In this document: positions 41,613-64,000 of the stretch, piece by piece
How positions within the stretch are numbered: the stretch's first letter is position 1
Layout: each line of letters begins with the position of its first letter
IMG/VR virus record: IMGVR_UViG_3300035181_000357
Location: 1-64,000 of that record
DNA: 64,000 bases
Origin: a virus
Strand: one strand, 5' to 3'
Translations under genes and position numbers: made by a program
Notes under the pieces: generated by a model
Databases searched by the model: none
What the model saw: the letters and a program-made list of their open reading frames with translations, nothing else
Told to the model about the DNA's origin: nothing

Positions 41613-43868
41613 TTAAACGCCTTCACCGCTACCTTCTAATCCAACTTCATCAGAATCTTTTTCTTCTAATCGTAAGCCCTTTGCAATCTTGGATTTCAGA
41701 TCAGTAGTATCGAGGAGCTGCTCATTAACACCTCCACCATAAATTGAGTCGAGAAGTTGATTAAACTTAGAGTCGTTGACTGTGAACAAATCCTCTTCCA
41801 GCTTTCTTCTGCAGGTCTCAGGATCAATGTTTAAGAATTCGTAGATAATCTCGATTGGTACAGCACCCTTTGAATAGAGGTTGAACAGCATCTCATATAC
41901 GTCACCAGAATCTCTTAAAGCTAATCTGGAGAAGTTGATCTTAGGATAGATCCAACGAGGTCTGTTGTAATTATCTAGTTCGAAGAATCCCTTCTTCATA
42001 GCGATCGGTTTGAAGAAATCCTTCTCCATCAGATTGGAGATCGTCTCTCTATATAAGACATATGTGGTATTTAAGAGTTCTAAATGAATTCTGTTACCAG
42101 AATAGAATCCTTCACCAGTAAGGAGATCAGGACTGAACCCCAAACCAGTGGATAAGTCGGCATTTGTATGAGTCCACTCAGAGTCTAGTGCTAGAATACG
42201 ACCCTCAGATCCGATCTCATTCCATGTTGCATCGTAGTTAACGACGATTGTGTAATCTGGATCAGATTTAGCCTCGTCAATATGGGCTCGAAGGGCCATA
42301 GTCTCAGTGCTGGATATATCTGGGGCTACCACCAGTGTCTTTGGTGTCATATTTCTACTGACAATGGTTGTCTGAACCTGCCTGAGCTTGTCACGATATA
42401 TTACAGTACGAAGACAACGCTGTAGAATTGAACGTCCATGGTCTTCATATGGAGCTTTCTTTCTAGCGAAATGGATTAAGAAGCTACCCTTTAAAGGATC
42501 TTGATTGAGTGGGATCTTCCCATCTGTTTCCAAGACATCTCTAGTATCTTTATCGATATTAGGATCCTTCATGAATGCTTCCTTCTGGAATTCAGAAGGT
42601 TCATAGAACACGACAGGACCATCACCGAATCTAGCATCTCTTCTGATCTCAACTCTATCAGGTGGGATCATCTGAATTCTGGACCAGCCGCTGTAATCTT
42701 TGTTTACAATGTGGGAAAACAGCTCGTACTCGTGTTCTCTAGCTTCTCGGATTACCTTTAACTCAGATAATAGTTCCTTTTTCTTCTCCAAGAGAACGAG
42801 GAGCTTCTGAAGATCAGCAATTTCTTCTTTATCATCACTTAATTCATCGTCGTCTTCTGGTGTTGGAGAAAGATCTGGATCCTCAGAATCAGGACTGGTC
42901 TGTTGTTGGAGGTTATCTCCTACACCTTGTTCCTGCTCCTGATCTTTCTCTTGCTGAATCTCTAATGGAGATCTCATCTCCTTAGCTGCATCAGCATTAC
43001 TATCTTCTTTGTCTGCCTCGTCACCAGGAAGAGCGATTTTCATCGCAGCTACCTTTGATTTTACTTTAGCGATCTTTGTCTTGAGCTTTAGATGTGCACT
43101 TCTTATCTGTTTTAGGAGATTACTCTCTGTTTCAGTAGAAAGGCCTAGTTTCTTAGCTTCACGTATCCTTGAAGACTTAGCTGGATTGATGAACTGAATG
43201 ATGTCCATGTCATCAATACCATTAGCAGGATGCATATCTCCTTCACCAGAAGATTGATCTCGATCTCCACCCTCTCCACGACCACCTCTAGCTTTGATCT
43301 GCTTAGCAGCCTCTTCGCAGAGTGGCACATCTTCTTCTGAATCTTCTACGTACAAGAAGGCCTCTCCAATCAACCAGTATTCTTTAGTTGCTTGAAGCAA
43401 AGAATCGAATAACTCGGTATCTGATACGAGAGCCTGATAGAAATCATAAATGTAATCGGTGAATGCCTCAGAACTAGATTTTGGCTTCTCCAAAATCATC
43501 TTAGACATAGGCAATTCAGTATGAAGATCGATTGCTCGGGATACGATAGGATCTCTATCATATGAGAGTCTGTAGAACTTTAATTCTTCTTTTCTAGATT
43601 GAGGTAATTCCAGGGAATCTACTGGAAATTCAAAATTATAGTATCCAATATTCTGTGAATCAGCGATGTCAGCAGAACCCAAACCACCATCACCAAAGAG
43701 AATAGCCTGTTTACGAATGCCACCAGTCTTGGAGACTCCTAAAGCTATCGATCCATCTTCATTTTGATAAGTATATGAACCTGCAGAAAATGGTTCAGGT
43801 TTCTTATTTCGAGAAGTTGGTCTAGCAGCAGTTTTTCTCTTCACAGGTTGTTTCTTTGGATCTGCCAT
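41613..43868 (-). CDS. Portal protein
   Basis: A 751-residue protein resembling T4-like (gp20-type) portals. FYRLSYDRDPIVSRAIDLHTELPM (about 92-115, of which DPIVSRAIDLHTELP is the conserved core) and YWLIGEAFLYVE match the region before the wing, and RILALDSEWTHTNADLSTGLGFSPDLLTGEGFYSG-type sequence near residue 560 marks the clip/stem area. A charged, low-complexity insertion (about 230-340, rich in D, E, Q) is coiled coil or disordered. The portal forms the dodecameric ring through which the terminase at 51136-52992 packs DNA. The first 35 residues are basic and may be disordered. Confidence 0.8.
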   Translation of the reverse strand: MADPKKQPVKRKTAARPTSRNKKPEPFSAGSYTYQNEDGSIALGVSKTGGIRKQAILFGDGGLGSADIADSQNIGYYNFEFPVDSLELPQSRKEELKFYRLSYDRDPIVSRAIDLHTELPMSKMILEKPKSSSEAFTDYIYDFYQALVSDTELFDSLLQATKEYWLIGEAFLYVEDSEEDVPLCEEAAKQIKARGGRGEGGDRDQSSGEGDMHPANGIDDMDIIQFINPAKSSRIREAKKLGLSTETESNLLKQIRSAHLKLKTKIAKVKSKVAAMKIALPGDEADKEDSNADAAKEMRSPLEIQQEKDQEQEQGVGDNLQQQTSPDSEDPDLSPTPEDDDELSDDKEEIADLQKLLVLLEKKKELLSELKVIREAREHEYELFSHIVNKDYSGWSRIQMIPPDRVEIRRDARFGDGPVVFYEPSEFQKEAFMKDPNIDKDTRDVLETDGKIPLNQDPLKGSFLIHFARKKAPYEDHGRSILQRCLRTVIYRDKLRQVQTTIVSRNMTPKTLVVAPDISSTETMALRAHIDEAKSDPDYTIVVNYDATWNEIGSEGRILALDSEWTHTNADLSTGLGFSPDLLTGEGFYSGNRIHLELLNTTYVLYRETISNLMEKDFFKPIAMKKGFFELDNYNRPRWIYPKINFSRLALRDSGDVYEMLFNLYSKGAVPIEIIYEFLNIDPETCRRKLEEDLFTVNDSKFNQLLDSIYGGGVNEQLLDTTDLKSKIAKGLRLEEKDSDEVGLEGSGEGV

Positions 43869-47589: not shown

Positions 47590-48223
47590 TAAATTCTCCA
47601 GCTCTCAACCTTTGTTCCTTCAATCTCAAGATACTCCGAACCTTACTCAATCCCAGGACTCTTGCACAGGGTAATGGATCGTTAGATTTCTCACCTAGGA
47701 AGTAGAATCGCATAAGTTCCTTTACTAAACCAACCTTGTCTTCAGTCTCTGCAGCGACTAGTTCCGAAACTCGCCTAATATAAAGATCCTTCACATCAGT
47801 GAATTCCAAGAGGATGATATTCTCTTCTTCCACATCCTCTAAGTCGTCTTCCATCTTTGGAAGATTATATTTCTCTTCTAACCATTTAAGGGCTGCAACT
47901 CTTGTGGTGCCCATAAGTCGGGATACTAGTTTAGTATGATCCCAATATTGATCGCCAGGAGGACAACCGTAGCAATACGCGTCGTTAGATCGTTGGTACA
48001 AATGGAAACTTGGATTTGAATCACGTCCGTGAAATGGACATGAAATTGAATCACCTTTCGGAATCTTCCCAGTAACTTCTAGTGCCAGATCTCTGAAATC
48101 AATCAATTCTCTTATACGATCCCATCTCTTCTCAGAGATCTGCTTGTATGAAGAACCTAACAGTAATCTCGCTTCTTCTCTACTAAATTCTACATCCTCA
48201 ATGTCCTTGAAGTCTTCTGACAT
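47582..48223 (-). CDS. Free-standing DnaG zinc-binding (CHC2) domain protein
   Basis: A 213-residue protein whose core (about 35-115) is the CHC2 zinc-binding domain that opens bacterial DnaG: CPFHGRDSNPSFHLY (C62, H65) and YCYGCPPGDQYWD (C84, C87), followed by the typical helix with RVAALKWLEEKY. In DnaG this domain recognises the template initiation site. The TOPRIM core is missing here and lies in 24052-24942 and 31461-32228. The last 95 residues are helical, with LLEFTDVKDLYIRRVSELVA, possibly a docking arm for the split core. It directly precedes the polymerase gene. Confidence 0.8.
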   Translation of the reverse strand: MSEDFKDIEDVEFSREEARLLLGSSYKQISEKRWDRIRELIDFRDLALEVTGKIPKGDSISCPFHGRDSNPSFHLYQRSNDAYCYGCPPGDQYWDHTKLVSRLMGTTRVAALKWLEEKYNLPKMEDDLEDVEEENIILLEFTDVKDLYIRRVSELVAAETEDKVGLVKELMRFYFLGEKSNDPLPCARVLGLSKVRSILRLKEQRLRAGEFNV

Positions 48224-48259
48224 TTATTTCCTCTTAAGTCTTAGATACTTTAAAGGCTT

Positions 48260-48292
48260 GGACCCCGAGGTCGTTTAATTTCCTCGAGGTCC
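48260..48292 (-). terminator. 11-bp hairpin between sigma-like and CHC2 genes
   Basis: GGACCTCGAGG and CCTCGGGGTCC on the minus strand pair over 11 positions with one U-G wobble, separated by 11 bases. The wobble pairs only in minus-strand RNA (it would be C-A on plus), which supports function in the message. There is no U-run after it, so it may be a processing or stabilising structure or a partial terminator. Confidence 0.5.
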
Positions 48293-48322
48293 ATCTTGTC
48301 TTAATTAGCGTATTCTTTCCGG

Positions 48323-49144
48323 TTATACCTTACTAGTCTTACGTGTGTAGATCTTCCTCTTGTTGGGGATCTTCTGAAGTCCCTTAGAGTACACACTAGC
48401 CAAGATACGGAGTCTCGACTTGAGTCTATTTAGTTCTTCCATCTTGAGTCCGGCAACTTCACAGATCTCAGACATAGAATTATTCTGCATGAACAAGGTA
48501 GCCGTCTTCAGCGTATCTGGCTCGTTCTTCTTAAGGAATTTCACGAATCCTTTAACGAAGTGGGTAGTATCCATAGAATCTGCAAAATTCAAATCGACCA
48601 AGTGGGAACAGTTGTGTTTGGTGAACAGGTCTTCAAGAGTCACTGTTCCTGGAACATAACTTTCTGCTGATTCTGGAGCATCGAAGGAGATCATCAAGGT
48701 ATTGCGTTGAGTAATCGGCTCTCTGGTTCTCTTTCTGATACAAATCATATACTTTCTAGTAAGTAGAAGATTGATGTAGAAGAAGAATTTTCCAGCAGAT
48801 TTGCCACCAATTCTGTCACCCGAGAATGACATGATTCGATCTTTGATTCCCTTGGCCTGGCCATTTTTAGAGACTGTAAGAATATATTCTACCATATCAT
48901 GGGTGAAATCTTCTAACAGTTCGTTCGGACAGCGGTGTCTGATAAGCCAAGTCTTTATATACTTTGGATATCTGTTATTAAACTCTTCGAAATTCATTGG
49001 AACAACAAAGTCATCATCAACAGACACGACTTCCTTGTAACTGAAATCCGATTTCTTCGTTGCTAAATCCAGTTCCTTCTTATCTTCTTCTGTCATCTCT
49101 TCGTCAAGGATAACATCATTTAGGTCTGACAAGCGTTCCTCCAT
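48323..49144 (-). CDS. Sigma-70-like (ECF-type) factor candidate
   Basis: A 273-residue protein that resembles a sigma factor. YIKTWLIRHRCPNELLEDFTHDMVEYIL (about 61-88; ELLEDFTHDMVEYIL is the diagnostic part) fits region 2.1-2.2. At the C-terminus TLKTATLFMQNNSMSEICEVAG, then MEELNRLKSRLRIL, has the helix-turn-helix of region 4, including the 'SxxEI...G...E...LKSRL' pattern typical of sigma-70 members. The central region contains basic residues that could contact DNA. A role in late transcription is plausible because it lies among head and packaging genes; this is inferred. A different HTH DNA-binding protein is the alternative. Confidence 0.55.
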   Translation of the reverse strand: MEERLSDLNDVILDEEMTEEDKKELDLATKKSDFSYKEVVSVDDDFVVPMNFEEFNNRYPKYIKTWLIRHRCPNELLEDFTHDMVEYILTVSKNGQAKGIKDRIMSFSGDRIGGKSAGKFFFYINLLLTRKYMICIRKRTREPITQRNTLMISFDAPESAESYVPGTVTLEDLFTKHNCSHLVDLNFADSMDTTHFVKGFVKFLKKNEPDTLKTATLFMQNNSMSEICEVAGLKMEELNRLKSRLRILASVYSKGLQKIPNKRKIYTRKTSKV

Positions 49145-49205
49145 GGAGTTTGAAGTTGATACTCCTTGCTCATTATATCAGGGAGAATGAAATTCTAAAC
49201 AATCT

Positions 49206-50078
49206 TTATTTAGTTGGTACTCTCTTAAGCTGACTCTTCTGTTTTAGTTCTTCGAGGAGTCTCTTGTTGGCTTCTTCTAGAGTAGATAGTTTTCCCCTTA
49301 CCTCATCTAGTTCAACCTTCTGAGTTGTAGTCACAGTTTTGTTGGTAGAACTTAACCAACTATTTACTAACAACATCATCATTAATGATGCTAAAATCCC
49401 AATGAAATTAGTCTTTATCTGGGACAAGATCAGGTTGGATAGAATGATTATGGGTTCTTTCTTCTCACCAGTAAGGGGATTAAATCCTCGTTCTTTTAAC
49501 AATTCAGCAATAGCTATTTGTAGTGTAGGTAGTAATCTAAGGACTTCATCGTCTTTCATGTTCTTGAAGAACAGAATTATAGGAGAATGAGCTTGTAACG
49601 CAGTATATATAAGATCGATTTTAGCCATCGCTTCTTTTAACGTGACATCTATTTTTCTTCTATCTGCCATAGCTTCGTCTAATGATGCTTTTATTGCGAC
49701 GAGTTGATTATATATCGTTTTATATGTCCCAGCTACCCCAGATAATATACTTCTATTCTTTCTGGTCTCTTCTATCTGAGTCTCGGATTCAGTTGAAAGA
49801 GTTTCTACCAGTCGTTCGAAGCTATCACTAATACTAGAACAGAACTGGATAATTTGGTTTAGTTTCTCATCACCATCTTCCATATTATCAGACGAATTTT
49901 CTGTATAAGCTGAGAGCATACTCTGCAGTTTCTCCAGAGCCTTCTCCATATCGTTAGTGATTGATAGAATGTCTCTTATGTCTAGATATGCGGCTTCTGT
50001 AGAAGCATAGATCTCCTGAAGATCCTCTTTTACTTCTGAATTTGCAGGGAGAAACCTTCTTCTTCTATCGTCGGCCAT
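49206..50078 (-). CDS. Coiled-coil membrane protein, 290 aa
   Basis: Long coiled-coil helices cover about residues 15-165, one hydrophobic segment lies at about 226-246 (NFIGILASLMMMLLVNSW), and a second coil (about 255-285) closes the protein, ending in a basic tail. The N-terminus is basic (DDRRRRFLPAN), suggesting it is cytoplasmic. No tape-measure or holin family is recognised. It is cotranscribed with two further unrecognised proteins just after the terminase gene. Confidence 0.6.
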   Translation of the reverse strand: MADDRRRRFLPANSEVKEDLQEIYASTEAAYLDIRDILSITNDMEKALEKLQSMLSAYTENSSDNMEDGDEKLNQIIQFCSSISDSFERLVETLSTESETQIEETRKNRSILSGVAGTYKTIYNQLVAIKASLDEAMADRRKIDVTLKEAMAKIDLIYTALQAHSPIILFFKNMKDDEVLRLLPTLQIAIAELLKERGFNPLTGEKKEPIIILSNLILSQIKTNFIGILASLMMMLLVNSWLSSTNKTVTTTQKVELDEVRGKLSTLEEANKRLLEELKQKSQLKRVPTK

Positions 50079-50087
50079 TGTCTCTTC

Positions 50088-50612
50088 TTATAGATGTTGG
50101 GGAACTAGAGATCGTCGGCGGATAATATTCTCTTTACTTTCGCTGGACAGAGAATCCATTCTAACTTTTATTAAAGATTCTAATCGCTCATTTGTTATTT
50201 TTATTTTAGCAATCGAATCTTCTAGAATTTTTGAACTCCTCCGAGGATTGACCTCTACTAAGGGGTTTATAACTTCACTTTTAAAAGGCAGTTCTCTATT
50301 AACAGGAAATATAACATCAAACGTTATCTTCTCATTCTTGAAATCTCTGCTGAACTGCCATAAAACATCCCCACCTTCCATGACATACACTTTCTCTTTG
50401 TCATCTAGGAGGGGATCATCATTTACATAAGATAATATCAATTCTTGGTCAGCAATCTTACATCTTGAATTTTTAAACAGAATCTTTGGGACACCACCAT
50501 CGTCGGCGATGACTACGATTGGAAACGGAACAGAATTTATGATCTCGATTAGGGAAGCTATAGGATCCTTGAGCCTCAGAATTTCTGTTGTTCGATGTCG
50601 TAACCTAAGCAT
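50088..50612 (-). CDS. Hypothetical protein, possible PAS-like start, 174 aa
   Basis: Not recognised. Residues 20-55 (LIEIINSVPFPIVVIADDGG...ILFKNS) resemble the first strands of a PAS domain, a fold for small-molecule or protein sensing, but the match is short. The C-terminal 50 residues are helical and charged. The gene is flanked by two membrane-protein genes. Start ATG 50612 with weak SD. Function unknown. Confidence 0.55.
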   Translation of the reverse strand: MLRLRHRTTEILRLKDPIASLIEIINSVPFPIVVIADDGGVPKILFKNSRCKIADQELILSYVNDDPLLDDKEKVYVMEGGDVLWQFSRDFKNEKITFDVIFPVNRELPFKSEVINPLVEVNPRRSSKILEDSIAKIKITNERLESLIKVRMDSLSSESKENIIRRRSLVPQHL

Positions 50613-50652
50613 AGTAATAGCCCGTAGATATTCTAATTATAAGGTAGGAAAC

Positions 50653-51108
50653 TTATTTATTACCCTGGAATAGGATTTCTAAAAATGGGAGCTGCGGTAG
50701 GAAAAGAATCCAGCAATAGAAGAGTGTGTTGAAAAACAAAGGGCAAGACATATCCATTCGATATGGGGAATTGTTATCTTTGTATATTTCTGGGACATAT
50801 TCTCCTGGAAACAACTGGGCTTCTAAAGATGACCTCTTTAGGATATATAGACCGACGGTCATCATACCTACTAGAAAGTAGATAGACACTGTCTTCCAAG
50901 ATAATCCGAGATTTAAAAACCATTCTAAGTACAAATGGTCATAATTATAATTAAATATCGAGTATAATACTAAGGCTATCGCGAGTTTAAATGGGGTCTT
51001 AGTCCAGAAGGGTTCTTTATTATTCTCAGACATACCCAACTTGTTATGTCTAGTGATTAGAAATGTAAATGACGAGGCTATAGATATGGCTATAAAAGCG
51101 TTTATCAT
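50653..51108 (-). CDS. Membrane protein with about four helices, 151 aa
   Basis: Hydrophobic segments at about residues 2-19, 42-57, 73-93 and 124-145 predict a small polytopic inner-membrane protein. This topology and size are compatible with a holin, but no holin family signature is seen, and an infection- or exclusion-related membrane protein is equally possible. It lies between the terminase gene (27 bases downstream) and the PAS-like gene. Confidence 0.6.
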   Translation of the reverse strand: MINAFIAISIASSFTFLITRHNKLGMSENNKEPFWTKTPFKLAIALVLYSIFNYNYDHLYLEWFLNLGLSWKTVSIYFLVGMMTVGLYILKRSSLEAQLFPGEYVPEIYKDNNSPYRMDMSCPLFFNTLFYCWILFLPQLPFLEILFQGNK

Positions 51109-51135
51109 TGAAATGCTCCTACATCTTATTACGTG

Positions 51136-52992
51136 TTAGAAGCGACGACCAGCCAACCTACCAGGACGACCTGGGACATCCTCTCGAGTCATGGCCTTTA
51201 TTCTCTCAGACATCCTATAATTTGATAATGAAGATACTTCAGGATCGAAGTCAAGCCCATGTAGTAAAGGATCTATATTATTACCAGAAATAATATCATC
51301 CATTTTATTAGGTTCATCTTTCATAAATTGGTTAGCTAGATATGCAACTAACGCTACGACATCACACATGTCATCGTGGGCACCCTTTTCATTGGGAGCC
51401 TGTACTCTAATCTGGTACTTACTGACTATGGTGGCTTCTACAGATTTTATTTCTTTCTCGAAAATAGGAACATCTGGGAACCTGATTGTACCTTGATCGA
51501 TGAATCCCTTAAGTGTATAATACATTTGAGAATTGATACCAGTATTTAAATGTACCAATTCAAAATTCTCAATATCATTCATCTTCAAAAGCTGGGTGAG
51601 CATAGACCCACCATGTTGGTCAGTACAACCCTTATAACAAGGCAGAACAGAATTAAGCCCGATCATCCAGTTGAGGATATCCTCTAAAGGAATCTCTGTA
51701 ACATGTTCATATGGAGCCTCACCAACCATCTTGCGGCCGATATAATCATAGTATAATTGAATCCCAACACCATCAACATATTCAAGATGCCCAATAGCTA
51801 GAGCCGTGGCATCGTGTTTCATACCAAGATCTAGTGCCCAGAAGTACAGCTTTGAAAATTTCTCTTCTTGATATCTAACAGTATTCTCTCGTCCTCTATC
51901 TATAGCTCGTTCAATAGATAGAACAGGTACGTAAGATTCAGCAGAGTCTAGAAACTGTCCACCATACTCAGCTTTCCAGGTTAGGGAAGCAGATATGGCC
52001 TTCTTTCTCAGGTATTCAGAGTTAGAACGAGGGTTCATCTCAGCAGATGAACACATGAGGGTAAAAATTCCAGAATCTGGGCCATGTTTCATAGCCTCGG
52101 CATGAAGATCGTAGGCTTTACCTTCACGCTTCCATGGGCTGGTAATGGTTAAGATCAGAGATTCTAATAATCCTGTCTCAGTACTGGTGAAGTTCATGGT
52201 AGCTGGAGCTGCTGCTTCATATACTTCATCAGAGTTTGAACCCTTCTCATTCCTGAAGTGAGCAAACTCGTCTAGTGCCAAGAAATATGAGCTGGGACCA
52301 CGTACAGCATTCGTGGTACAAGGCCAGGCACCTATCTTAATAGATGGGATAACATCACGTTTGTCTTTATCAGCTTCAGTTACGAACTCCATGCTCTTAG
52401 ATCCCGGAGTCTTTCTAAGGTATGGACTAAAGAATGGACAGGAGTTAATGTCTGATTTAAATTTATCGTATAGACGGTTAGCACCAGAATTATCTTGTGC
52501 CAGGAAAGTGAATTCTATTGGAGAACCTTCAACCAGACCGAAATGTTCATGAGGAGATCGTATAGATAGAAGTTTATATAGTTTGAAATCTGCGATAGCA
52601 GATACTAACTGGGATTTACCACCACGTCGGCCAGCAAAGATAACAGCTTCGTTGAATCCTCGTTCTGGGAGATCTTGCCAATCTTCTACGTTTATTCTAC
52701 CTTCACTATATAGATAATCTAGATATTCTCGTTCAGTAAAGGTGTAGAGAACTTCTTCTGCGAACTTATCTTTTACAATTATGGTCCCCTCTTTATAATC
52801 CAGGGGAACTCCCAAGATGCACTTGTATATAAATCTTTGAACTGGATATAGAGTTACCTTTGGTCCAGAATCCCCTTCTAAAAAATCTATACCATTTAAT
52901 ATATTAGAATTAACAGATATTTCACTATCTACGATTTGACCTAAGATTGATGATCTAGCCTGATGAGAAAATTTATTAATCTTTACTGCCAT
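51136..52992 (-). CDS. terL: Terminase large subunit
   Basis: A 618-residue packaging motor. The ATPase domain has Walker A GRRGGKSQ (121-128), Walker B FLALDEFAHF (about 238-247) and the coupling motif LILTITSPW. The nuclease domain has WALDLGMKHDATALAIGH (first acidic residue), and GAHDDMCDVVALV near residue 542 (last acidic pair), of the RNase H type. It docks to the portal encoded at 41613-43868 and cuts genome-length DNA from concatemers. No certain small subunit is present; 56600-57088 and the 53-residue NUMOD3-like protein are candidates for associated DNA-binding proteins. It starts 17 bases inside the end of the 53-residue gene. Confidence 0.95.
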   Translation of the reverse strand: MAVKINKFSHQARSSILGQIVDSEISVNSNILNGIDFLEGDSGPKVTLYPVQRFIYKCILGVPLDYKEGTIIVKDKFAEEVLYTFTEREYLDYLYSEGRINVEDWQDLPERGFNEAVIFAGRRGGKSQLVSAIADFKLYKLLSIRSPHEHFGLVEGSPIEFTFLAQDNSGANRLYDKFKSDINSCPFFSPYLRKTPGSKSMEFVTEADKDKRDVIPSIKIGAWPCTTNAVRGPSSYFLALDEFAHFRNEKGSNSDEVYEAAAPATMNFTSTETGLLESLILTITSPWKREGKAYDLHAEAMKHGPDSGIFTLMCSSAEMNPRSNSEYLRKKAISASLTWKAEYGGQFLDSAESYVPVLSIERAIDRGRENTVRYQEEKFSKLYFWALDLGMKHDATALAIGHLEYVDGVGIQLYYDYIGRKMVGEAPYEHVTEIPLEDILNWMIGLNSVLPCYKGCTDQHGGSMLTQLLKMNDIENFELVHLNTGINSQMYYTLKGFIDQGTIRFPDVPIFEKEIKSVEATIVSKYQIRVQAPNEKGAHDDMCDVVALVAYLANQFMKDEPNKMDDIISGNNIDPLLHGLDFDPEVSSLSNYRMSERIKAMTREDVPGRPGRLAGRRF

Positions 52993-53137
52993 TCTCTTCT
53001 CTCCACTTAGCCCATCGTTTTATTTGAATGACATCCGACATCTTTTTCTTAGACTCTTCTGAATGTTTCTTTCCTAGATTGGCATCTCGTAATTTCTGTC
53101 TAGTATCTACAGATGGATTTTTCTTAGATTCTGACAT
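52976..53137 (-). CDS. NUMOD3-like DNA-binding peptide, 53 aa
   Basis: A short gene overlapping the terminase start by 17 bases. TRQKLRDANLGKKHSEESKK (residues 12-31) matches the NUMOD3 motif (pattern 'S/T-x-x-x-K-x-x-x-A-x-x-G-K-x-H-S-x-E-T/S-x-x-K') found in the DNA-binding tails of GIY-YIG and HNH homing endonucleases, here without any nuclease domain. The last 15 residues are basic (IQIKRWAKWREE). It may be a remnant of a homing endonuclease or a DNA-binding protein recruited to serve the terminase. ATG 53137 has GAGGAA 15 bases upstream. Confidence 0.6.
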   Translation of the reverse strand: MSESKKNPSVDTRQKLRDANLGKKHSEESKKKMSDVIQIKRWAKWREENGSKD

Positions 53138-53204
53138 CTTTTTCTAGCTTCCTCGGACCATATTCTAGTTCTATTGAGTGTGGTGTTATTACTTTAGCTG
53201 CCAT
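53124..53204 (-). CDS. Possible small ORF, 26 aa
   Basis: A tiny frame from ATG 53204 to TAA 53124, overlapping the end of the ADP-ribosyltransferase gene by 11 bases and the start of the NUMOD3-like gene by 14 bases. This chain of overlaps is how real genes are arranged here, and otherwise the 56-base gap would be empty. The peptide is charged (contains IELEYGPRKLEKD). There is no family match. Confidence 0.25.
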   Translation of the reverse strand: MAAKVITPHSIELEYGPRKLEKDVRI

Positions 53205-53964
53205 GGGTCACATCTACTACCTTTATCTGGTCTTTTACTGAATTCCAGTATTTCATCAGACTATCAGAATTTACATCTTTTATACTATCTGGGTGATTCC
53301 ATACCCAAGGTATGATATATAGCTTAGTAGGCCATATCACTCCATCTGAAGTAATAGCTGACGGCATCGTCTCTATCAACTGAATAGTTAGAGAATCTGG
53401 AATGATTTCGTCTTCTATGGCTTTTTTAGCATACCATACTAAGTCATCATAGAACACGGACTTCTTTTCGAACAGACCCTGCAGAATCGAATGAAATTTA
53501 TAATCTTTTATATTCTGATCCAAGGTGTCAATCAACCGTCTTACTAATGCTCTGTTCTTAGCGACCTCTTTACGAAAAGTCAGAGGTGTGGTATTGTGTA
53601 CATCGCTGACTACACCCTCATCCATGTCATAATAGCATAGTATGATATCTGCTATAGAATCTTCATCCATAGTCAAGTCATTAAATGCAGAACCTGGTAT
53701 TTCAAAGATATACAGATTATCATCATCTATAACCTGAGATATCCTGGTTACAGAGTATGACAGAGCCTGCTTAATAGAATTAGCAAAGTATATTCTGCCC
53801 TTTTGAGGCTCCATTTGCCCAGCTTCAAAGGAAATATCCTTAGATTTTAATCCTTCTTTTAGGATATTATCTGCAGCCTCTTTAGTAGTCCCGTGCCACC
53901 AGGTCCTAGATTTTATATTAGGAGTTGGAGATACAGCGATTCTTCTGGTGAAGAGTCTGGACAT
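53194..53964 (-). CDS. Putative ADP-ribosyltransferase (ART fold)
   Basis: A 256-residue protein whose first 95 residues look like an ADP-ribosyltransferase or KptA-like ART domain. WWHGTTKEAADNILKEGLK (22-40) has the H of the H-Y-E triad, GRIYFANSIKQALSYS (56-71) has the Y, and YIFEIPGS (85-92) has the E at E88. Such enzymes transfer ADP-ribose from NAD. T4 carries virion-packaged (Alt) and early (ModA/B) members that modify host RNA polymerase and translation proteins. The gene lies among portal and packaging-region genes, which suggests a virion protein injected with the DNA. The remaining 160 residues are not recognised. RNA 2'-phosphotransferase activity is an alternative. Confidence 0.6.
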   Translation of the reverse strand: MSRLFTRRIAVSPTPNIKSRTWWHGTTKEAADNILKEGLKSKDISFEAGQMEPQKGRIYFANSIKQALSYSVTRISQVIDDDNLYIFEIPGSAFNDLTMDEDSIADIILCYYDMDEGVVSDVHNTTPLTFRKEVAKNRALVRRLIDTLDQNIKDYKFHSILQGLFEKKSVFYDDLVWYAKKAIEDEIIPDSLTIQLIETMPSAITSDGVIWPTKLYIIPWVWNHPDSIKDVNSDSLMKYWNSVKDQIKVVDVTHGS

Positions 53965-53969
53965 ACATT

Positions 53970-56588
53970 CTAATCTTTCTTCTTGATGATGTACTTGACC
54001 TTTAAAGTCATAGTCTCTATATCGAGTTTCTCAGCACGAACAAATACTTCATATGTGAATCCAGCATCGCCTTCATCATTCCATACAGCAGCTTGTGCCC
54101 AGGCACCATTCAATGCATCAATCATATCAGTATCATTTAGACCATCAGCGAGGGCCTTGAAGCCAAAACCAGTCTGATCAACGGGGAGTATTCCAGCATT
54201 AGCTAGCAGAAGACCAGTCTCTAGATCGTTGAGTCTGAGAGTCCATTCCATTGGAGTGTCAGTGAATAATGGCTTTTGTGTAACCTGGAATCCAGAAACT
54301 AGAGTGGCAGCAATCTGGCCGCAGATTCTCTTAAGAACATCAGCTAATTTTACTTTGTTCTCTGCTGAAGCAGTCTTCGAAGCCTTTTTAGAAGCCATCA
54401 ATAGCGAACTAGGATTGATATCATCATGTGGGGCATTAAACATGTTGGTGAATCCAGGACCACGGAGGTTGAGTTCCTTACGTAGAGGAGCACCTTGTGG
54501 TTGACTTGGTCCGAGACCCATACCTGCTGGACCCTTTGTAGCATCACCTTCATCGGTCTTCTCTAACTGCATCTGTAACATTTCAGGTGTTGGAGAATGG
54601 GTGAATTCTCTTCCAACTGGTTGAATAGCAAGCTGTTCTGCCATTTCAGGATAGAAACCTTCTAGAACCTGACCAGGAACCATCAACGTGAAAGCTTTCT
54701 TCTCCAGGAATGATTCTTTCTTATCTACAGGAGGATCAGACCATGCTTCAAATCTCCTAAAGTTGTTCTTGTCAGAAAGCCCCTTGGTGAACTTCTCTCT
54801 TGCCTTTTCTGTCGAGAACGTACGTTCTTTGTTTACGACCTGATCCTTTTTATTAAATTCAGACCATTGAACCCCCCAATTACCATCAGCAGAGGCTGTT
54901 ACAGGTTTCTTTTCTTCCTCTTCCTCATGTTGGAACCAATCATCAGCTGACATTGGTAGTTCTTCTCTCAAAATCTCTTCAGAAGAAGCTTCTTTTAACA
55001 GTCCATGCATTTGTGCATACTCGATTGCAGATCCAAGCCAATCATTAGGGTTTAGATATCCGTCTTCGACGAGTTCTCCAACTTCTTCATCAGACCAGGA
55101 AGCAATCTCGGTGTCACCCTTATACAGGGTTACTTGAGCACGATCTCTCTCAAACCAGGTATCAACTCTGTATTCATCAGAGTCAGCAGATTCTACTCTC
55201 TTCAACTCGTCCTTCTGATCTTCGCCTTCAGCGAACTGATCTTCATCAGTTCCTTCTTCTAAGACATCTACTAGCTTCTTGTGTTCTTCTATGAATTCAT
55301 CAGCTGGCATTTCAACCACGATCTTAGCACCATGATCATCAGCAAGAGTTAGAGCTCCAGGAAGACCCTTTACCTGAGCAATCTCATCAGAGGCTGAAGG
55401 CATGTTGGAGTAATAATCCTGGATGATGTGTTGTACATCGAGAGAACCATTCTTGCCACCCGACAGGATCCAATCCTCTAAGGTTAGGAGATCATTCTGC
55501 ATCTTCTCGTAACGAGGTCCTTGACTCTCGTCTCCAGACTTATCCATCTTTCTAAGTTCTACTCTCAGATACTTGGTCACCATCTTTGCATCAGCTTCTA
55601 CATCATCAGATGCTTTCTTTGGATCTGGACCATCAACCATCTCTGGTCCAACAGTTTCCTTAGATCCTGGGGCACCATAATCTGGACGATTACGAAGGCC
55701 AGTTTCAGCAGATATTTTAGTCTTAGTATCTAAGATATCTTCAATCTTACTGAATAGCTTAAGTTCTTCTGGCTCCATGATACTCTCTTCGAGTTCTTCG
55801 ATGTGAGCAGCGGATAATCTGATCTTCTTTCTCTGAACTTCAGCTTTTACCAAGGAAGAAGCGATGAGTCTGAATGTGGTCTTAATTTTAAGATCCTTAA
55901 GTGCATCTTTTCCGATCGACTTGCCTTCTCCTAGACTGACCTTAATGTCCTCAGCTTCCACCTCAGATCCTTTACCAAGTTCTGGGTAAGCGTTGCCATA
56001 ACTAGGAGTCTTAAAGACATGCTGTTGAAGTGGGATAGATTCCACACGGAATGCACCAGTCAAGGCTTTGATCTGTTCGAAAGAGTTTGATAAGGCTGGG
56101 TTATACATGGCACAGAATACCTTGTCTCTAAGGTCTAGGAACAGGGTGTCTTCGTTGAAGTGGATGACCTTAATATCTGAGATATTTGCCCAAGCTGGAT
56201 GGAAGACTACTAAATCACATACTTCACCATTGGAATTGGTGAATAACATTTCTTTAGCCATCTTTAAAGTGTCTTTTGACATATCTTCAGAGGCTAGAAA
56301 CTGTAGTCTGGCTTCAATGGCTTCTTCCTGATTTAAGGAAGAGAATACACCAGAAGCTAGGAGAGCGATTGGGAAGTTTTCTGCTTTCTTACATACAGAG
56401 GCTGGTACTACATAGATATCACCAATAACGATATCTTCTCTATATGATTTTTTGCAGATCTCTAACTTAGCTACATTTCCTTTGTTAGCTTCTTTAGCAC
56501 CCTGAGTCTTGATAGCCTCAGCTACCTGGGCGATCATCTCGTCAGGTGCAGTGAAAGAAAGATATGATCTATATGCCTTAGTTGCCAT
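53970..56588 (-). CDS. Large unrecognised virion-region protein, 872 aa
   Basis: Not recognised. A large acidic, multi-domain protein. The first 300 residues are compact and mixed alpha/beta (IVIGDIYVVPASVCKKAENFPIALLASG). The middle (about 300-690) is low-complexity and acidic with EEEEEKKPVTASADG-type linkers. The end (about 725-872) returns to a folded domain with LEVK-type strands and TMTLKVKYIIKKKD. Several A-S/E-rich linkers could be cleavage or flexible sites. It lies directly upstream of the ART gene (5-base gap). A capsid-internal or neck protein is possible, but the sequence does not show it. Confidence 0.6.
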   Translation of the reverse strand: MATKAYRSYLSFTAPDEMIAQVAEAIKTQGAKEANKGNVAKLEICKKSYREDIVIGDIYVVPASVCKKAENFPIALLASGVFSSLNQEEAIEARLQFLASEDMSKDTLKMAKEMLFTNSNGEVCDLVVFHPAWANISDIKVIHFNEDTLFLDLRDKVFCAMYNPALSNSFEQIKALTGAFRVESIPLQQHVFKTPSYGNAYPELGKGSEVEAEDIKVSLGEGKSIGKDALKDLKIKTTFRLIASSLVKAEVQRKKIRLSAAHIEELEESIMEPEELKLFSKIEDILDTKTKISAETGLRNRPDYGAPGSKETVGPEMVDGPDPKKASDDVEADAKMVTKYLRVELRKMDKSGDESQGPRYEKMQNDLLTLEDWILSGGKNGSLDVQHIIQDYYSNMPSASDEIAQVKGLPGALTLADDHGAKIVVEMPADEFIEEHKKLVDVLEEGTDEDQFAEGEDQKDELKRVESADSDEYRVDTWFERDRAQVTLYKGDTEIASWSDEEVGELVEDGYLNPNDWLGSAIEYAQMHGLLKEASSEEILREELPMSADDWFQHEEEEEKKPVTASADGNWGVQWSEFNKKDQVVNKERTFSTEKAREKFTKGLSDKNNFRRFEAWSDPPVDKKESFLEKKAFTLMVPGQVLEGFYPEMAEQLAIQPVGREFTHSPTPEMLQMQLEKTDEGDATKGPAGMGLGPSQPQGAPLRKELNLRGPGFTNMFNAPHDDINPSSLLMASKKASKTASAENKVKLADVLKRICGQIAATLVSGFQVTQKPLFTDTPMEWTLRLNDLETGLLLANAGILPVDQTGFGFKALADGLNDTDMIDALNGAWAQAAVWNDEGDAGFTYEVFVRAEKLDIETMTLKVKYIIKKKD

Positions 56589-56599
56589 CTTGTCTCCAA

Positions 56600-57088
56600 T
56601 TAATTTGTAATTTCTACTTTTTCTACTTCTCTTCTTAGTTCTGGTTCTCTTATAGCCATCATATCTCTGAATGCTCTAAGAATTTCGTTTGCCTTGTCTT
56701 CAGTATACCCAGATTGAATAATGGACTTTTTCATCATCGTTACTATTTCTCGTACAGCATACTGGAACTTTGGTCCATCGAAGTTTAGGACATCTCGTCT
56801 AGCTAACAGATCGTTATCTTGAAGGGTTTTACTAAGTTCTCTTAAGGCCTTTACCTGTGCTTCTCTTGTCTTCAGGCTGACTTGAGCCAGTGGGCTAGCT
56901 GCAATACCAGAGATCTCTCGGATGACATTAGCCATCTCAACAGCGATCATTCTATTAATGAGTGTTAATGGAACGTTGGGATCATCCACCATTTCCATTA
57001 TTTTACTATAGTTTACTGCTCTAGGATCTTTCAATCCATCGACATAAACTTGATCATTCTCATCAAAGGATATTTCAGAAGTTGCCAT
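56600..57088 (-). CDS. Hypothetical helical protein; possible terminase small-subunit-type
   Basis: A 162-residue, mostly helical protein. The segment AQVKALRELSKTLQDNDLL (about 76-94), with a following DVLNFDGPKFQYA, is a pattern I associate with small DNA-packaging or head proteins of large phages, but I cannot place it firmly. The charged C-terminal helix (EPELRREVEKVE) could be coiled coil. It starts 4 bases after the stop of the 440-residue gene with GAG as a short SD. The terminase small-subunit role is a suggestion based on size, helicity and proximity to terL. Confidence 0.5.
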   Translation of the reverse strand: MATSEISFDENDQVYVDGLKDPRAVNYSKIMEMVDDPNVPLTLINRMIAVEMANVIREISGIAASPLAQVSLKTREAQVKALRELSKTLQDNDLLARRDVLNFDGPKFQYAVREIVTMMKKSIIQSGYTEDKANEILRAFRDMMAIREPELRREVEKVEITN

Positions 57089-57091
57089 ATA

Positions 57092-58414
57092 TTACTCTAT
57101 GTCTCCAACGTTCCCATAGGAACCGAGGTCAATGTCATGACCCTTTAATTCCTTGATCTCAACATCGAAATCTTGAAGCTTAGAAGAGTCTAATCCGACT
57201 TGTGTATTTAAGGTGTTTCCATCATAAGAAGGATCGCCGTTGGCAATCTTATTTGATGATACCTTATCTAGACCAGGGAAAGTAAGAAGAGTTCCACCGG
57301 TTAGACCACAATGCATACCATTACGATATGTGCAAGAAGCACATTTCTTGGCACCGACGATGGCATTCTTAGAAGCCAGTTTACCATGTAGGTACTTACA
57401 ATCAACACGATCAAGATTGATCTTTGACCCGGTCTTCTTTAGGTCATCGATATATCTCTTAGCAGCTACTTTAACCTTTAAGGTTCCGAACTTCTCACGA
57501 GCTTCTACGAAAGCAGCCTCAAAGGATTTCCCACTATCAATATCCTGTCTGAAATTATCAGAAGAGATACTATCTTCAGTGAATGTAACCTTGTCTCCAG
57601 CACTTCTGATAGAATATTGCTCATCTTGAGCTCTTGGAGCCTGGACCTGAACCTCATCCTGAACACCATTATGAATATCAGTCATAGCCTTCTTGCTAAC
57701 CTGCTTACCCAACTGGGCTGCTATTTTATTGACAACTTCCTGCAATTCTTTCTTGCTTGCTACGATAGGAAGTTTATAAAGATTACAACGTCCACCAGCA
57801 CAATGGCTGCATGAGTCACAAGCTGATATCTTCTTAACAGAAGCGGCTTTAACTGAACCTTCTCGCTTAATCTTATTGAAGGTTTCGATACAACCCTTAG
57901 AACCAGAACTCTTCATAAAGTGGTTTGGCTCAATGAAAGAAAGACCAACCAGGCCAGCTCTGTCGTTGAGATAATCGGCTGACATAGTCTTATTGAAGAT
58001 AGCCAACTCTGCGAGTTTATTCATCTTGGATTCGATCTTTTCAGGACTAAATCCTAGGTGAAGGAGGTCATCAATTCTCTTCAATACTTCAGAATCTGTT
58101 AACATCTTCTTCTCTAGACCCTCAATACTGGATCCAGACGCAGCCTTTAAAGCAGAGGCTAAGACAGATGTATCATCGTCGATAGCTTTCTCTGCTCGAC
58201 CTTGCCAGTCCTCATGATTGGGGATATTGGTTGCAGTTCTACCAGTGTTGGTGTGGTGACTCTTTCCACCTAACTCTTGTACCAAGTTATCAGATTTATC
58301 CTGAGATATGGCTTTGAATCCATCGCCACTCTTCTTCTCTTCCTTTGTATTTTCATACGAAGGAGCTACATCGTCAAGGATTTGATCTATAATAGATGCG
58401 TAAAATTTTGTCAT
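57092..58414 (-). CDS. Cys-rich virion-region protein, 440 aa
   Basis: Not recognised. It contains two similar cysteine clusters: CDSCSHCAGGRCNLYKLP (about 200-217) and CASCTYRNGMHCGLTGG (about 371-387). Each has CxxC plus a later C before a Leu-rich stretch, suggesting two zinc or metal knuckles. The cluster pattern C-x2-C-x(2-7)-C-x(3)-C resembles an iron-sulphur or zinc site, and both ends are low-complexity. It is cotranscribed with 56600-57088 downstream. It may be a head-associated protein. Confidence 0.55.
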   Translation of the reverse strand: MTKFYASIIDQILDDVAPSYENTKEEKKSGDGFKAISQDKSDNLVQELGGKSHHTNTGRTATNIPNHEDWQGRAEKAIDDDTSVLASALKAASGSSIEGLEKKMLTDSEVLKRIDDLLHLGFSPEKIESKMNKLAELAIFNKTMSADYLNDRAGLVGLSFIEPNHFMKSSGSKGCIETFNKIKREGSVKAASVKKISACDSCSHCAGGRCNLYKLPIVASKKELQEVVNKIAAQLGKQVSKKAMTDIHNGVQDEVQVQAPRAQDEQYSIRSAGDKVTFTEDSISSDNFRQDIDSGKSFEAAFVEAREKFGTLKVKVAAKRYIDDLKKTGSKINLDRVDCKYLHGKLASKNAIVGAKKCASCTYRNGMHCGLTGGTLLTFPGLDKVSSNKIANGDPSYDGNTLNTQVGLDSSKLQDFDVEIKELKGHDIDLGSYGNVGDIE

Positions 58415-58424
58415 TTCATATCCC

Positions 58425-58751
58425 TTAATCGTAAAATTCTAAATCGTCTAAAATATGTTTTAAAGAAGATTCAGGATCTCTTGAATCAGCTGCCATGAGA
58501 GTCTCAGAGTTATCTACTTCATTTGCAGAAGTTAAACGCATGATCTTACCTTCTTTTACTTCCCAGAAATCCTTAGAACTTGGGCACTCATATACATTTC
58601 CTGCTACTCTCATCAATCCTAGTCTCTGGATTACCGTATTGGCTGAAGCCATAATAGGTAAAAGGGCATCATGAGCCTCAGATGCCATATCAGACTGTTT
58701 TGGTATAGACAGGGAATGAATACTGGCTTCCACTCTCTTTTTCATTGACAT
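58425..58751 (-). CDS. Hypothetical protein, 108 aa
   Basis: Not recognised. Helical N-terminus (MASEAHDALLPIMASANTVI) and a beta-like centre with NVYECPSSKDFWEVKEGKI. It has GGAG TTAGG before its ATG and is close (10 bases) to the 440-residue gene. No functional motif. Confidence 0.6.
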   Translation of the reverse strand: MSMKKRVEASIHSLSIPKQSDMASEAHDALLPIMASANTVIQRLGLMRVAGNVYECPSSKDFWEVKEGKIMRLTSANEVDNSETLMAADSRDPESSLKHILDDLEFYD

Positions 58752-58815
58752 CCTAACTCCTAAATCTACAGATATAAGTCATCATAATAGGTAAGAGAAG
58801 TTATTTACATGTCTG

Positions 58816-59562
58816 TTAATGGTTAGCTCTGGATACCATAATGTGATCGAAAGCTGGATCTTCTACGTCAATGTAGAAGGAACCTAGTAAATCAGGATCT
58901 TCTTTAAACAAGAAACTCATCTTTTCTAGTTTCCGTTTACTGTATCCCTGACCATTAGCACTCGCTTTGTCAATGAGGCCATATATCATTGCACCTAACG
59001 ACAGACTTAGTTCGTCATCCTTATCTAATAGAGCCTTTGAAACCTGCGATAGAACTCTTCGTACATCAGGTCTGTGTACATTGCTCTTCTTGGCTACAAT
59101 GTTAAAACTTCTATACTTTCTATAGTCTTCTATCAGAGTAGAAGTTTTTACACCTTTAAGCACATTCTCTAGTCCATTTGTAGACAGAACAGTACTAATT
59201 AGACCAGAATCAGGATTGGCCCCATATATAATTATGGCCCCAAGCTTCTTGATGGCCATACGAATCTTAAAGCTGCATATTGTTTGAGTGGATCTGTGTA
59301 TCTTTGCCAGGCACCATTGAGGCTTATTGATCATGTAATAACTTAGGAGTAATTCCTGGTCTTCAATCGAGATATTTCTTAAAATCTTTAGAAAATCTGG
59401 AAAATTCTCCTTTATATACATTGAGATATGTTCTTCAATCAAATCATTTTGAGTCTCTAACGAGACTGTTTGATCTTGAAACTTCTCATCACCACTCTCT
59501 TCGTATGCATCTACTGATCGTTTAGAGATTATTGCGTCGAAGTACGGGCTGATTTCGGGCAT
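58816..59562 (-). CDS. Possible HTH DNA-binding protein, 248 aa
   Basis: The segment around residues 65-110 (ISIEDQELLLSYYMINKPQWCLAKIHRSTQTICSFKIRMAIKKLG) reads like a helix-turn-helix of the sigma-region-4 class: a helix, a turn and a recognition helix before a KLG-type ending; only SIEDQELLLSYYMINKPQ and HRSTQTICSFKIRMAIKKLG are quoted as the two halves. A second HTH-like pair may lie near residues 140-175 (FNIVAKKSNVHRPDVRRVL). It could be a regulator of late genes. It follows a terminator by about 100 bases, so it may start a new unit. No family is firm. Confidence 0.5.
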   Translation of the reverse strand: MPEISPYFDAIISKRSVDAYEESGDEKFQDQTVSLETQNDLIEEHISMYIKENFPDFLKILRNISIEDQELLLSYYMINKPQWCLAKIHRSTQTICSFKIRMAIKKLGAIIIYGANPDSGLISTVLSTNGLENVLKGVKTSTLIEDYRKYRSFNIVAKKSNVHRPDVRRVLSQVSKALLDKDDELSLSLGAMIYGLIDKASANGQGYSKRKLEKMSFLFKEDPDLLGSFYIDVEDPAFDHIMVSRANH

Positions 59563-59663
59563 ATAGTTAGTTCCTAACCTGGATAACTACTTTATTCATT
59601 CTAAAACTCCATGTACGCCAACGTTTACACGTTATCATTCACTTTAATTATTACCGATAAATA
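59563..59663 (-). promoter_or_regulatory. Leader of the HTH-like gene with AACGT-N4-ACGTT dyad
   Basis: The roughly 100 bases between the terminator and the start at 59562 hold no gene. They contain an AACGT-N4-ACGTT inverted repeat at 59620-59633 and an A/T-rich TTTTAGAATGAATAAAG stretch that could include a -10 element. I cannot place a convincing promoter. The dyad could be the operator of the HTH-like protein itself. Confidence 0.25.
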
Positions 59664-59697
59664 ATAAAAAGTCTCACATTTTAGTGAGACTTTTTAT
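59664..59697 (-). terminator. Intrinsic terminator after the 875-aa gene
   Basis: A perfect stem (AAAAAGTCTCAC / GTGAGACTTTTT, extended by two A/T pairs) with a 6-base loop, and T-runs on both sides, so it can act in both directions. It follows the stop at 59715 by 18 bases and separates this unit from the HTH-like gene. Confidence 0.9.
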
Positions 59698-59714
59698 ATC
59701 CTACTTTTAAAGTT

Positions 59715-62342: not shown

Positions 62343-62370
62343 ATTATCAGTCCTTGAAGAAGTAAGAGAT

Positions 62371-62568
62371 TTAGTCTAGGATTAGATCGTTTGGATCCCA
62401 AGACTGTTTGTCATCAGAAGATAACACTTCATCTAATACACCTAGAAACTCTTCGTGATCCTTGAAAGCAACATCACTGTGACCTTTGTCAGTAGCAGCA
62501 GTCTTTCCCTGTGCACTAGCATAGAGTCTGTTTAGAATAGTTGCATCTGGTTCTTGAATTTTAGCCAT
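62371..62568 (-). CDS. Hypothetical protein, 65 aa
   Basis: Not recognised. A small acidic protein, N-terminus MAKIQEPDATILNRLYASA, C-terminus acidic (SWDPNDLILD). Its ATG at 62568 has a GGAGAAATAACC leader. It is 28 bases upstream of the 875-residue gene and probably cotranslated. Confidence 0.6.
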   Translation of the reverse strand: MAKIQEPDATILNRLYASAQGKTAATDKGHSDVAFKDHEEFLGVLDEVLSSDDKQSWDPNDLILD

Positions 62569-62634
62569 GGTTATTTCTCCGAATAGTTATACCATCAATT
62601 AAAGTTCTGGAAGTCTAAATTGTATTTATTATGA

Positions 62635-63414
62635 CTAATGCGACTTCACAGGAGTTGTTCGTTCTACGACCTTTTCTTCTACCTCTACGGGTTTCTTTAC
62701 TACCTTCTTTTTCTTCTCTGGAACAGGTTTTTCTTCTACAGGCTCTTCCACTTCTTCCACTACTGGTATCTCTTCGATAGGCTCTTCTACAGGAGGGGGT
62801 TGTTCTACTAATTTCTCTTTTACGACAGGCTTGTTAATCTCAACAATTTCGTCGTCATCATCCTCAATAGGTTTGATAGTCGGAACCGTGTCATCATAAC
62901 GCTCTAACGTCTTCTCCACATTCTTATCCTTGAATTTCTCTAACAGCCTCTTTAGAAATGGATTTACTCTATCACTAACGATTTTGAGGTGTTTACAGAT
63001 TACGAACTGGAATCGTCTTGGATCAGTTGGAGCCTGATACTTATCTCGGGGAGTTCCTTCTAATGAGTCTCCTTGACCTAAGTTCCATTGTGCTCCCCAA
63101 TATAAGAAAGCTGGACAGCTACAACTGACTTTAACATCTAGATCTTTGATTGTAGATTTGTCAACAACCTGAGCCGTATCAAATCTGATTAATACAGTGT
63201 GGCCTCTGGGGTCAGAATCTTTCTCTTTGCATTTTACTTTGTATGTTAGTAGCATCTCATCAAGATCTACATTCTTAACAGACATATTACAGTTCTTAGC
63301 CTTAGCTACTGAGAAATCAGAAGTTAGTTGAACCAGATCTTTGATACTAAAAGCCACTTTATACCGGGATTGAGCTACCCAGTCACCGACTTTTGTTGTA
63401 ATCCAGACACTCAT
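62635..63414 (-). CDS. SWIM-type zinc-finger protein, 259 aa
   Basis: The first 150 residues include CSCPAF (C98, C100) and ICKHLK (C140, H142), the CxC...CxH arrangement of a SWIM zinc finger, with a spacing (39 residues) longer than usual. SWIM domains bind DNA or proteins. From about 170 the chain is Pro/Glu/Val/Lys-rich and disordered (EEPIEEIPVVEEVEEP, KKKKVVKKPVEV), with alternating acidic and basic blocks. It is the gene before the 65-residue protein. A head or DNA-associated protein is likely by position. Confidence 0.6.
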   Translation of the reverse strand: MSVWITTKVGDWVAQSRYKVAFSIKDLVQLTSDFSVAKAKNCNMSVKNVDLDEMLLTYKVKCKEKDSDPRGHTVLIRFDTAQVVDKSTIKDLDVKVSCSCPAFLYWGAQWNLGQGDSLEGTPRDKYQAPTDPRRFQFVICKHLKIVSDRVNPFLKRLLEKFKDKNVEKTLERYDDTVPTIKPIEDDDDEIVEINKPVVKEKLVEQPPPVEEPIEEIPVVEEVEEPVEEKPVPEKKKKVVKKPVEVEEKVVERTTPVKSH

Positions 63415-63431
63415 CTAACCCACCTATTAAA

Positions 63432-63454
63432 TCGGCCTTCATATAGAAGGCCGA
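63432..63454 (-). terminator. Hairpin after the AT-hook protein
   Basis: A perfect 9-bp stem (TCGGCCTTC / GAAGGCCGA) with loop ATATA, followed on the minus strand by TTTAAT, 20 bases after the stop at 63474 and 18 before the SWIM gene. The U-run is short, so it may be partial. Confidence 0.7.
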
Positions 63455-63473
63455 AATCCCAAAGCTATCTGAA

Positions 63474-63970: not shown

Positions 63971-64000
63971 AAGTTTGCTTAATCAGGGATTAAGGACGAG

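Follow-up and report, generated by a model that had tools for sequence, protein, structure and literature searches.

The window analysed here is a stretch of 64,000 nucleotides, the first 64 kb of a virus record of 210,611 bases that may be incomplete. Among its head and packaging genes is a short gene whose product the earlier note took to be a putative ADP-ribosyltransferase (ART), suggested by its placement to be packaged in the virion and injected with the DNA like T4 Alt. We ask here whether the product has an ART fold, whether its active site is that of a working enzyme, and how and on what it would act.

The gene and its neighbourhood

The gene occupies 53964..53194 on the minus strand, starts with ATG and encodes a stand-alone protein of 256 aa, which we assign to the ART fold from the open reading frame, profiles, a structural model and structure searches. 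Its start lies 5 nt past the stop codon of a gene for an 872-aa protein directly upstream (53970..56588, minus strand). To its other side are a 53-aa remnant of an endonuclease-like gene (52976..53137, minus strand; the type is assigned by eye, and the gene encodes 250 aa in contig L002) and the gene for the terminase large subunit (51136..52992, minus strand), whose start the remnant overlaps. The portal protein is encoded at 41613..43868 and the major capsid protein at record positions 63993-64913, just past the window, both on the minus strand. The placement among virion genes given earlier is therefore correct, in that the gene lies between the major capsid and terminase genes, in a head and packaging block that includes the portal and is encoded on the same strand.

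The gene is more than a chance open reading frame, since viral contig L002 retains a copy at the same place (42% identity to the window protein) and the differences between the two copies at the three codon positions (0.39/0.29/0.63) are in keeping with purifying selection on a protein whose synonymous sites are close to saturated. At amino-acid-changing sites the comparison of the window with L002 gives a pN of 0.36 for the ART gene vs 0.12-0.21 for three neighbours, which we count in favour of an effector because effectors tend to differ in this way. There are no Rfam matches within 48000-64000 and no terminator-like site near the ART gene, and promoter-like sites are found only at the level of shuffled sequences.

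The window's terminase shares 47% identity with the terminase of Tunturiibacter phage Tunturi_5, a cultivated 309-kb myovirus of an Acidobacteriota host (PMC11924767), and a terminase-based search yielded 46 loci from related large phages, among which there are near-copies. In 22 of the 45 loci L007-L051 (some of these loci being near-copies or fragments) a homologue of the 872-aa protein lies ahead of the terminase, and the slot between the two genes varies: it holds ORFs that are small or unrecognised, genes that by eye are endonuclease-like, or a protein of 633 or 911 aa. The homologue of the 872-aa protein in Tunturi_5 is gp350, which is annotated as DarB-like antirestriction; scanning gp350 against Pfam and PHROGs did not bear this label out. 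The homologous site in Tunturi_5 is 430 bp long and contains no ART, and a fusion of an ART with the 872-aa homologue in this phage was considered and rejected, there being no significant alignment.

The 633-aa protein is found in the pre-terminase slot of L018 (607-2505) and L019 (6351-8249), where it starts with MSRLFELRKS and has a weak nucleotidyltransferase match (E 0.066). The L028 protein of 911 aa and the 872-aa protein have homologous C-termini (33% over 284 columns, E 3e-33); an ART-like stretch in the former, seen by eye only, was set aside, having no match in Pfam, PDB, PHROGs or phage searches. L002 has a homing-endonuclease-like gene of 250 aa (9262-10014, by eye) between the ART and terminase genes. 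The terminase matches in L033, L034, L037 and L040 span ~2.7 kb vs ~1.8 kb, as if interrupted by an intein or intron, and the L040 ORF is 1493 aa long.

Family, fold and active site

Used alone as a query, the window protein returned nothing useful from the viral contigs or the phage collection, and tblastn found no phage relatives. Its match to the Pfam PARP profile (PF00644; 18.4 bits, E 0.0016) covers residues 18-74 only and is below the gathering score of 26.7; PHROGs has no match at E up to 0.1, and a DarT profile is absent among the Pfam and NCBIfam matches. The lack of DarT or PARP profile matches over cut-off is compatible with kinship. No ART rose above noise in sequence searches of the PDB, and the matches with better E-values there (a designed repeat protein, 1.3e-4, and interferon gamma, 0.002) were judged to be composition artefacts.

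With the L002 copy as query there is a distant match (E 3e-3) in Tunturi_5 gp205, at 26% over 159 aa. A profile of the window and L002 pair had matches at E up to 0.1 in 11 of 28 records, mostly over short stretches, and full-length relatives are present in L081/L068 (a 1013-aa ORF), L082 (1708 aa), L083 (742 aa), L084 (1280 aa; L085 is a near-copy) and gp205. A profile of the ART domains of these five relatives, built without the window sequence and without the L002 copy, retrieves the window protein at E 3e-9 and the L002 copy at E 2.9e-10 from 3617 distinct ORFs, and in the reverse search the window-pair profile retrieves all five relatives at 5.8e-9 to 1.5e-6. When the L081 domain was used as a single-sequence query, it picked up 5 of 26 records, one weakly, but not those of the window and L002, so that the kinship with the larger relatives rests on profiles. 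Within the record of the window, itself possibly incomplete, the subfamily profile has one match, the ART gene. Other searches did not extend the family: the alignment of the window and L002 pair found only the L002 copy again in the viral contigs and nothing in the genome contigs, the alignment of the relatives' ART domains had no matches in the genome contigs and a second such alignment added no new record from the viral contigs, and neither whole gp205 nor the 872-aa protein had matches in the viral contigs.

The ART-PolyVal family (PF18760) is not matched by any of the six subfamily members at E up to 1, nor does it match anything in the records of the window or L002 at E up to 0.1; it is matched in 11 of 18 related records and at eight places in Tunturi_5. 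Judged by these profiles, the subfamily is one with no Pfam match over cut-off, and this subfamily, seen here in single-gene form, is what the locus adds to the known ARTs, together with a tentative N-terminal leader.

At least two unlike domains per chain are found in the L068, L082 and gp205 proteins, whereas the window protein has a single domain. Tunturi_5 gp205 (PP885688; annotated as an ADP-ribosyltransferase exoenzyme toxin) resembles the window protein in its homologous ART domain and in its first 10 residues, but it is 853 aa long, has a GNAT domain over cut-off, weak ParB-like matches and more domains by eye, and is encoded far from the terminase. The L068 protein matches the Acb1/2H phosphoesterase family at 28.7 bits (cut-off 27), together with the 2'-5' RNA ligase type (Pfam), the L082 protein has a GNAT match over and a SprT-like match under the Pfam cut-off, the L084 protein has ART-PolyVal over cut-off, and the L083 protein has no other Pfam domain. 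None of the relatives that can be placed with respect to the terminase (in the records of gp205, L081, L084 and L085) adjoins it.

Two further observations concern the architecture of such proteins. The 1013-aa ORF (L068:4672-7710, minus strand) joins an Acb1/2H phosphoesterase-like domain, by name of an anti-CBASS family, to its ART domain; a sub-cut-off IcmF-related Pfam match over the helical insertion in L081/L068 was judged to be a composition artefact. ORFs of ~2,700 to 5,500 residues in L070, L071, L072 and L074 (records G013, G012, G008 and G017), some of them incomplete in the sequence examined, contain several ART-like 'YHGT' motifs and are possible ART arrays within one protein.

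A structural model computed from six sequences (the two of window type and four of the five larger relatives, gp205 being left out) reached a pLDDT of 73.8 and a pTM of 0.74, and a two-sequence model reached a pLDDT of only 41.3. Among the best 50 of 127 Foldseek matches to the PDB, ranks 1-28 are proteins known as ARTs (DarT1, Tpt1/KptA and ADP-ribosylating toxins), and the first other fold appears at rank 29 (E 1.4); none is below E 0.001, and the best is DarT1 (E 0.012 over 86 columns). A second look with VIA gave 48 of 50 rows that are likewise known as ARTs, at Z 5.6-7.6, with CC0527 in the remaining two; all Z scores stay below 8, where by the tool's own warning they can reflect merely a common arrangement. 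Three matches in the viral library are below E 0.001 (two unnamed, one uncharacterised, Vibrio phage nt-1), and proteins named DarT and PARP-domain rank below them. The split beta-sheet core of ARTs is found in the model, and with E and Z values that are modest and top ranks that are nearly all ARTs, the window protein very probably has an ART fold. Profile homology and structure thus bear out the ART domain of the earlier note; the lack of such a fold had been set as its refutation, and the model instead retrieves ARTs at the top ranks.

The C-terminal 160 residues, previously unrecognised, are modelled as a helical insertion (residues 103-200; 53365..53658, minus strand) and the last strands of the ART domain, with weak sequence support. 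Helices lie between residues 101 and 199 and are followed by strands at 214-219 and 248-251; the C-terminal core segment PSAITSDGVIWPTKLYIIP (residues 201-219; 53308..53364, minus strand), defined by alignment and model, includes G208 and P212, which are common to the relatives. When profiles of the window type and the larger type are compared, the N-terminal halves match at E 2.7e-12. For the C-terminal halves hhalign gives E 0.0081 and a probability of 4.9% over the segment around G208-P212 only, and these halves too are likely to be akin.

Residues invariant in all six sequences include H24, G25, T26, E29, R57, Y59, D96, D100, E101, D102, G208 and P212. H24 (53893..53895, minus strand) is the predicted NAD-binding His and lies within 'WWHGT', and Y59 (53788..53790, minus strand) is the predicted active-site Tyr and lies within 'GRIYFA', positions that fit strands 1 and 2 of an ART. 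The H-Y-E triad proposed earlier holds for these two residues and is not supported at the third, E88 (53701..53703, minus strand). This residue is contained in the modelled strand 83-90, and position 88 reads E,Q,A,E,E,E across the six sequences, with Q in the nearest relative (gp205 has E); we rejected it as the catalytic residue on account of this variability. Near it the invariant acids are D96 and the motif D100-E101-D102 (53659..53667, minus strand), which is at the start of the insertion but outside strand 5, and position 207 reads D,D,R,Q,R,Q, with Asp in two of six. The canonical acid of strand 5 is not evident, and the enzyme could be inactive.

The active site of polyvalent ARTs is described as His/Tyr/Asp, with the Asp in strand 5, and that of Alt as Arg/Ser/Glu (Iyer and colleagues, PMC5512222); H24 and Y59 of the predicted site match the first two residues of the former. 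The phage polyvalent ARTs (Tox-ART-HYD2 clade, PMC5512222; PF18760) share with the window protein the strand 1 His, the strand 2 Tyr and a jumbo-phage context, and the L084 ORF, a relative of the window protein, also has PF18760 domains. The window subfamily differs from them in having no PF18760 match and no conserved strand-5 Asp, and the window protein differs further in its long helical insertion, as modelled, and its free-standing single domain. The likeness to T4 Alt is one of proposed role only, that of a phage ART entering with the DNA: packaging is plausible, but the window protein has His/Tyr at strands 1 and 2 and does not fit the Arg/Ser/Glu site of Alt (PMC5512222), and the Alt family is absent among its Pfam, PHROGs and NCBIfam profile matches.

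A tentative N-terminal leader and a K-[TSQ]-A-[AS] motif

The first 14 residues of the window protein (MSRLFTRRIAVSPT; 53923..53964, minus strand) resemble the starts of several other ART-bearing phage proteins, a likeness captured by a post hoc pattern with modest hold-out support. The window protein starts with MSRLFTRR, the L002 copy with MLSRLLTRH and gp205 with MSRSKLLTRR; a scan of 2621 ORFs (duplicates counted) with a leader-type pattern found these three and one unrelated start, and a later scan of 1139 distinct ORFs added the L018 protein, a Tunturi_5 ART protein and one unrelated start. A broader pattern, formulated after the data had been seen and applied to any start, matches 10 of 15 ART-bearing ORFs vs 12 of the 407 other genes taken from Tunturi_5 and the record of the window; when a Shine-Dalgarno-like stretch is demanded too, the counts are 8 of the 15 vs 7 of 407. 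The 15 exclude ORFs with a cut-off N-terminus, and also an L073 ORF of 1518 aa (with the pattern) and the 911-aa protein of L028 (without it), the ART content of both being without tool support. Among 15 ART-PolyVal ORFs fetched afterwards as a hold-out, three match vs 7 of 407, both counts with the Shine-Dalgarno-like stretch (Fisher p 0.004); this set omits two overlapping frames and any ART-PolyVal ORF that lay at a contig end or had come up before, and it is not fully independent, as its records G006, G008 and G010 also occur, identical or nearly so, in the first set. The window ART gene itself has no Shine-Dalgarno by the leader-scan test. On these counts the leader pattern is enriched among ART-bearing ORFs yet far from universal.

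Similar starts occur in other genes. Two adjacent genes of record G000 (159280-160107 and 160082-160981, plus strand; L120) start with MMFKSQLLKTAAPP and MFRSSLLKSAAPP, like the ART-protein leader, and have no family match over cut-off. The N-termini of the major capsid proteins, LLLKSPGGRQKLA in G000 (63993-64913, minus strand) and LLKSAAGRQKLA in Tunturi_5 (281033-282025), also resemble the leader, which may be chance. A gene with InPase and GP88 matches (L110:9766-11226; Tunturi_5 224266-225726) lies directly upstream of that for a 1489-aa ART-PolyVal protein, and both starts fit the leader.

The motif K-[TSQ]-A-[AS] occurs 43 times in 17 ART-rich proteins vs 4.4 expected in shuffles; two of the 17 are without tool-supported ART and several are related, which makes the sites non-independent. 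Enrichment of the motif is also seen in 88 other large proteins (29 vs 8.2), and in the window a slightly wider form is present in the portal and in the proteins of 872 and 875 aa. As a lead, the motif could be linked to the processing of head-associated proteins, or simply belong to flexible linkers. That the leader (approximately M-x-LL-x-K/R-x-A) and K-T/S-A-A, which recurs within the large proteins and stands several times just before an ART domain, together form a head-targeting and processing signal for injected cargo, with the window protein as a single-domain cargo, seems to us quite unlikely.

Role, delivery and alternatives

We propose that the protein is a stand-alone member of an ART subfamily that is otherwise a domain of larger, often multi-domain ('polyvalent') effectors of jumbo phages, that it would be carried in alongside the phage DNA, and that H24 and Y59 would bind NAD+ so that, early in infection, ADP-ribose is moved to a macromolecule of the host or of its defences. 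Read loosely, as an ART effector that acts on the host and not in RNA repair, this chain has a probability of roughly 60%. The protein is probably active, a target of the host or defence type is likely, and the acceptor is somewhat more apt to be protein than nucleic acid. Delivery with the virion stands at even odds, entry with the DNA being the most likely route because the gene lies inside the capsid-terminase block.

An Alt-like packaged and injected role is plausible from the gene position, the related polyvalent effectors and published inference. Virion packaging of polyvalent ARTs is an idea already in print: more than 40% of jumbo phages and 30% of myoviruses are reported to have ARTs, for whose packaging a case is made (PMC9503650), the polyvalent ARTs have been postulated as packaged (PMC5512222), and for jumbo phages generally ARTs are likewise held to be packaged or listed among takeover factors (PMC7824862, PMC13282480). 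The term 'mass spectrometry' is absent from the main text of the Tunturi_5 paper (PMC11924767).

The ART could instead be an enzyme that, like T4 ModA/ModB, is synthesised in the infected cell and does not enter the virion, with the neighbourhood of the terminase a landing site for mobile cassettes. This is a real possibility, though one we place below even odds. It agrees with the presence in L002 of both the ART and the endonuclease-like gene between the 872-aa gene and the terminase, where the window keeps a remnant and Tunturi_5 has only 430 bp, and with the encoding of the gp205, L081, L084 and L085 relatives away from their terminases; it is harder to square with the other large proteins that occupy the same slot in relatives, one starting MSRLF like the window protein and another fused to the domain that ends the 872-aa protein. 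We consider it rather unlikely that the protein is a degenerate ART which binds NAD+ or ADP-ribose without transfer and serves as a sponge or adaptor: the unconserved strand-5 acid at position 207 would be expected of such a protein, but the invariance of H24, Y59, E29, R57, D96 and D100-D102 suggests a site that is maintained.

Other chemistries on the same fold have also to be weighed. RNA 2'-phosphotransferases of the Tpt1/KptA kind rank near the top of the structural matches (Z 7.6, rmsd 2.7, 88 aligned), their NAD-binding lobe aligning with the window protein, and there is a weak partial NCBIfam match (E 0.03 over 28 residues) and a match of the six-sequence A7 alignment profile to Tpt1 (E 0.44 over 26 residues). 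However, it is the C-lobe alone that aligns (residues from ~84 on in the archaeal chain), only ~20 residues precede strand 1 of the window protein, hence the N-lobe is missing, and the second-strand residue is Tyr where Tpt1 has another residue. Since the window protein lacks the separate lobe that Tpt1 has at its N-terminus, we rejected membership in this family, and regard such an activity as highly improbable. Modification of nucleic acid as by DarT is distinctly unlikely too; DarT1 heads the Foldseek list and DarT appears in VIA at Z 5.7 over 144 residues, but the Foldseek coverage of DarT1 is small and the Pfam and NCBIfam matches include no DarT profile.

We favour an ART effector that acts on the host, and the ART-fold protein of this large soil bacteriophage, whose relatives are parts of larger phage proteins presumed to sabotage the host, probably adds to the phage weapons of a generally known kind, as a member of an uncatalogued family. 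If active, it would be a small, single-domain and expressible member of an ART subfamily otherwise found in proteins of 742 to 1708 residues, and its target could be sought directly. The cultivated relative Tunturi_5, with its Acidobacteriota host (PMC11924767), makes the packaging of such effectors testable, and if the leader should be a packaging signal, the injected cargo of these phages would be predictable from sequence.
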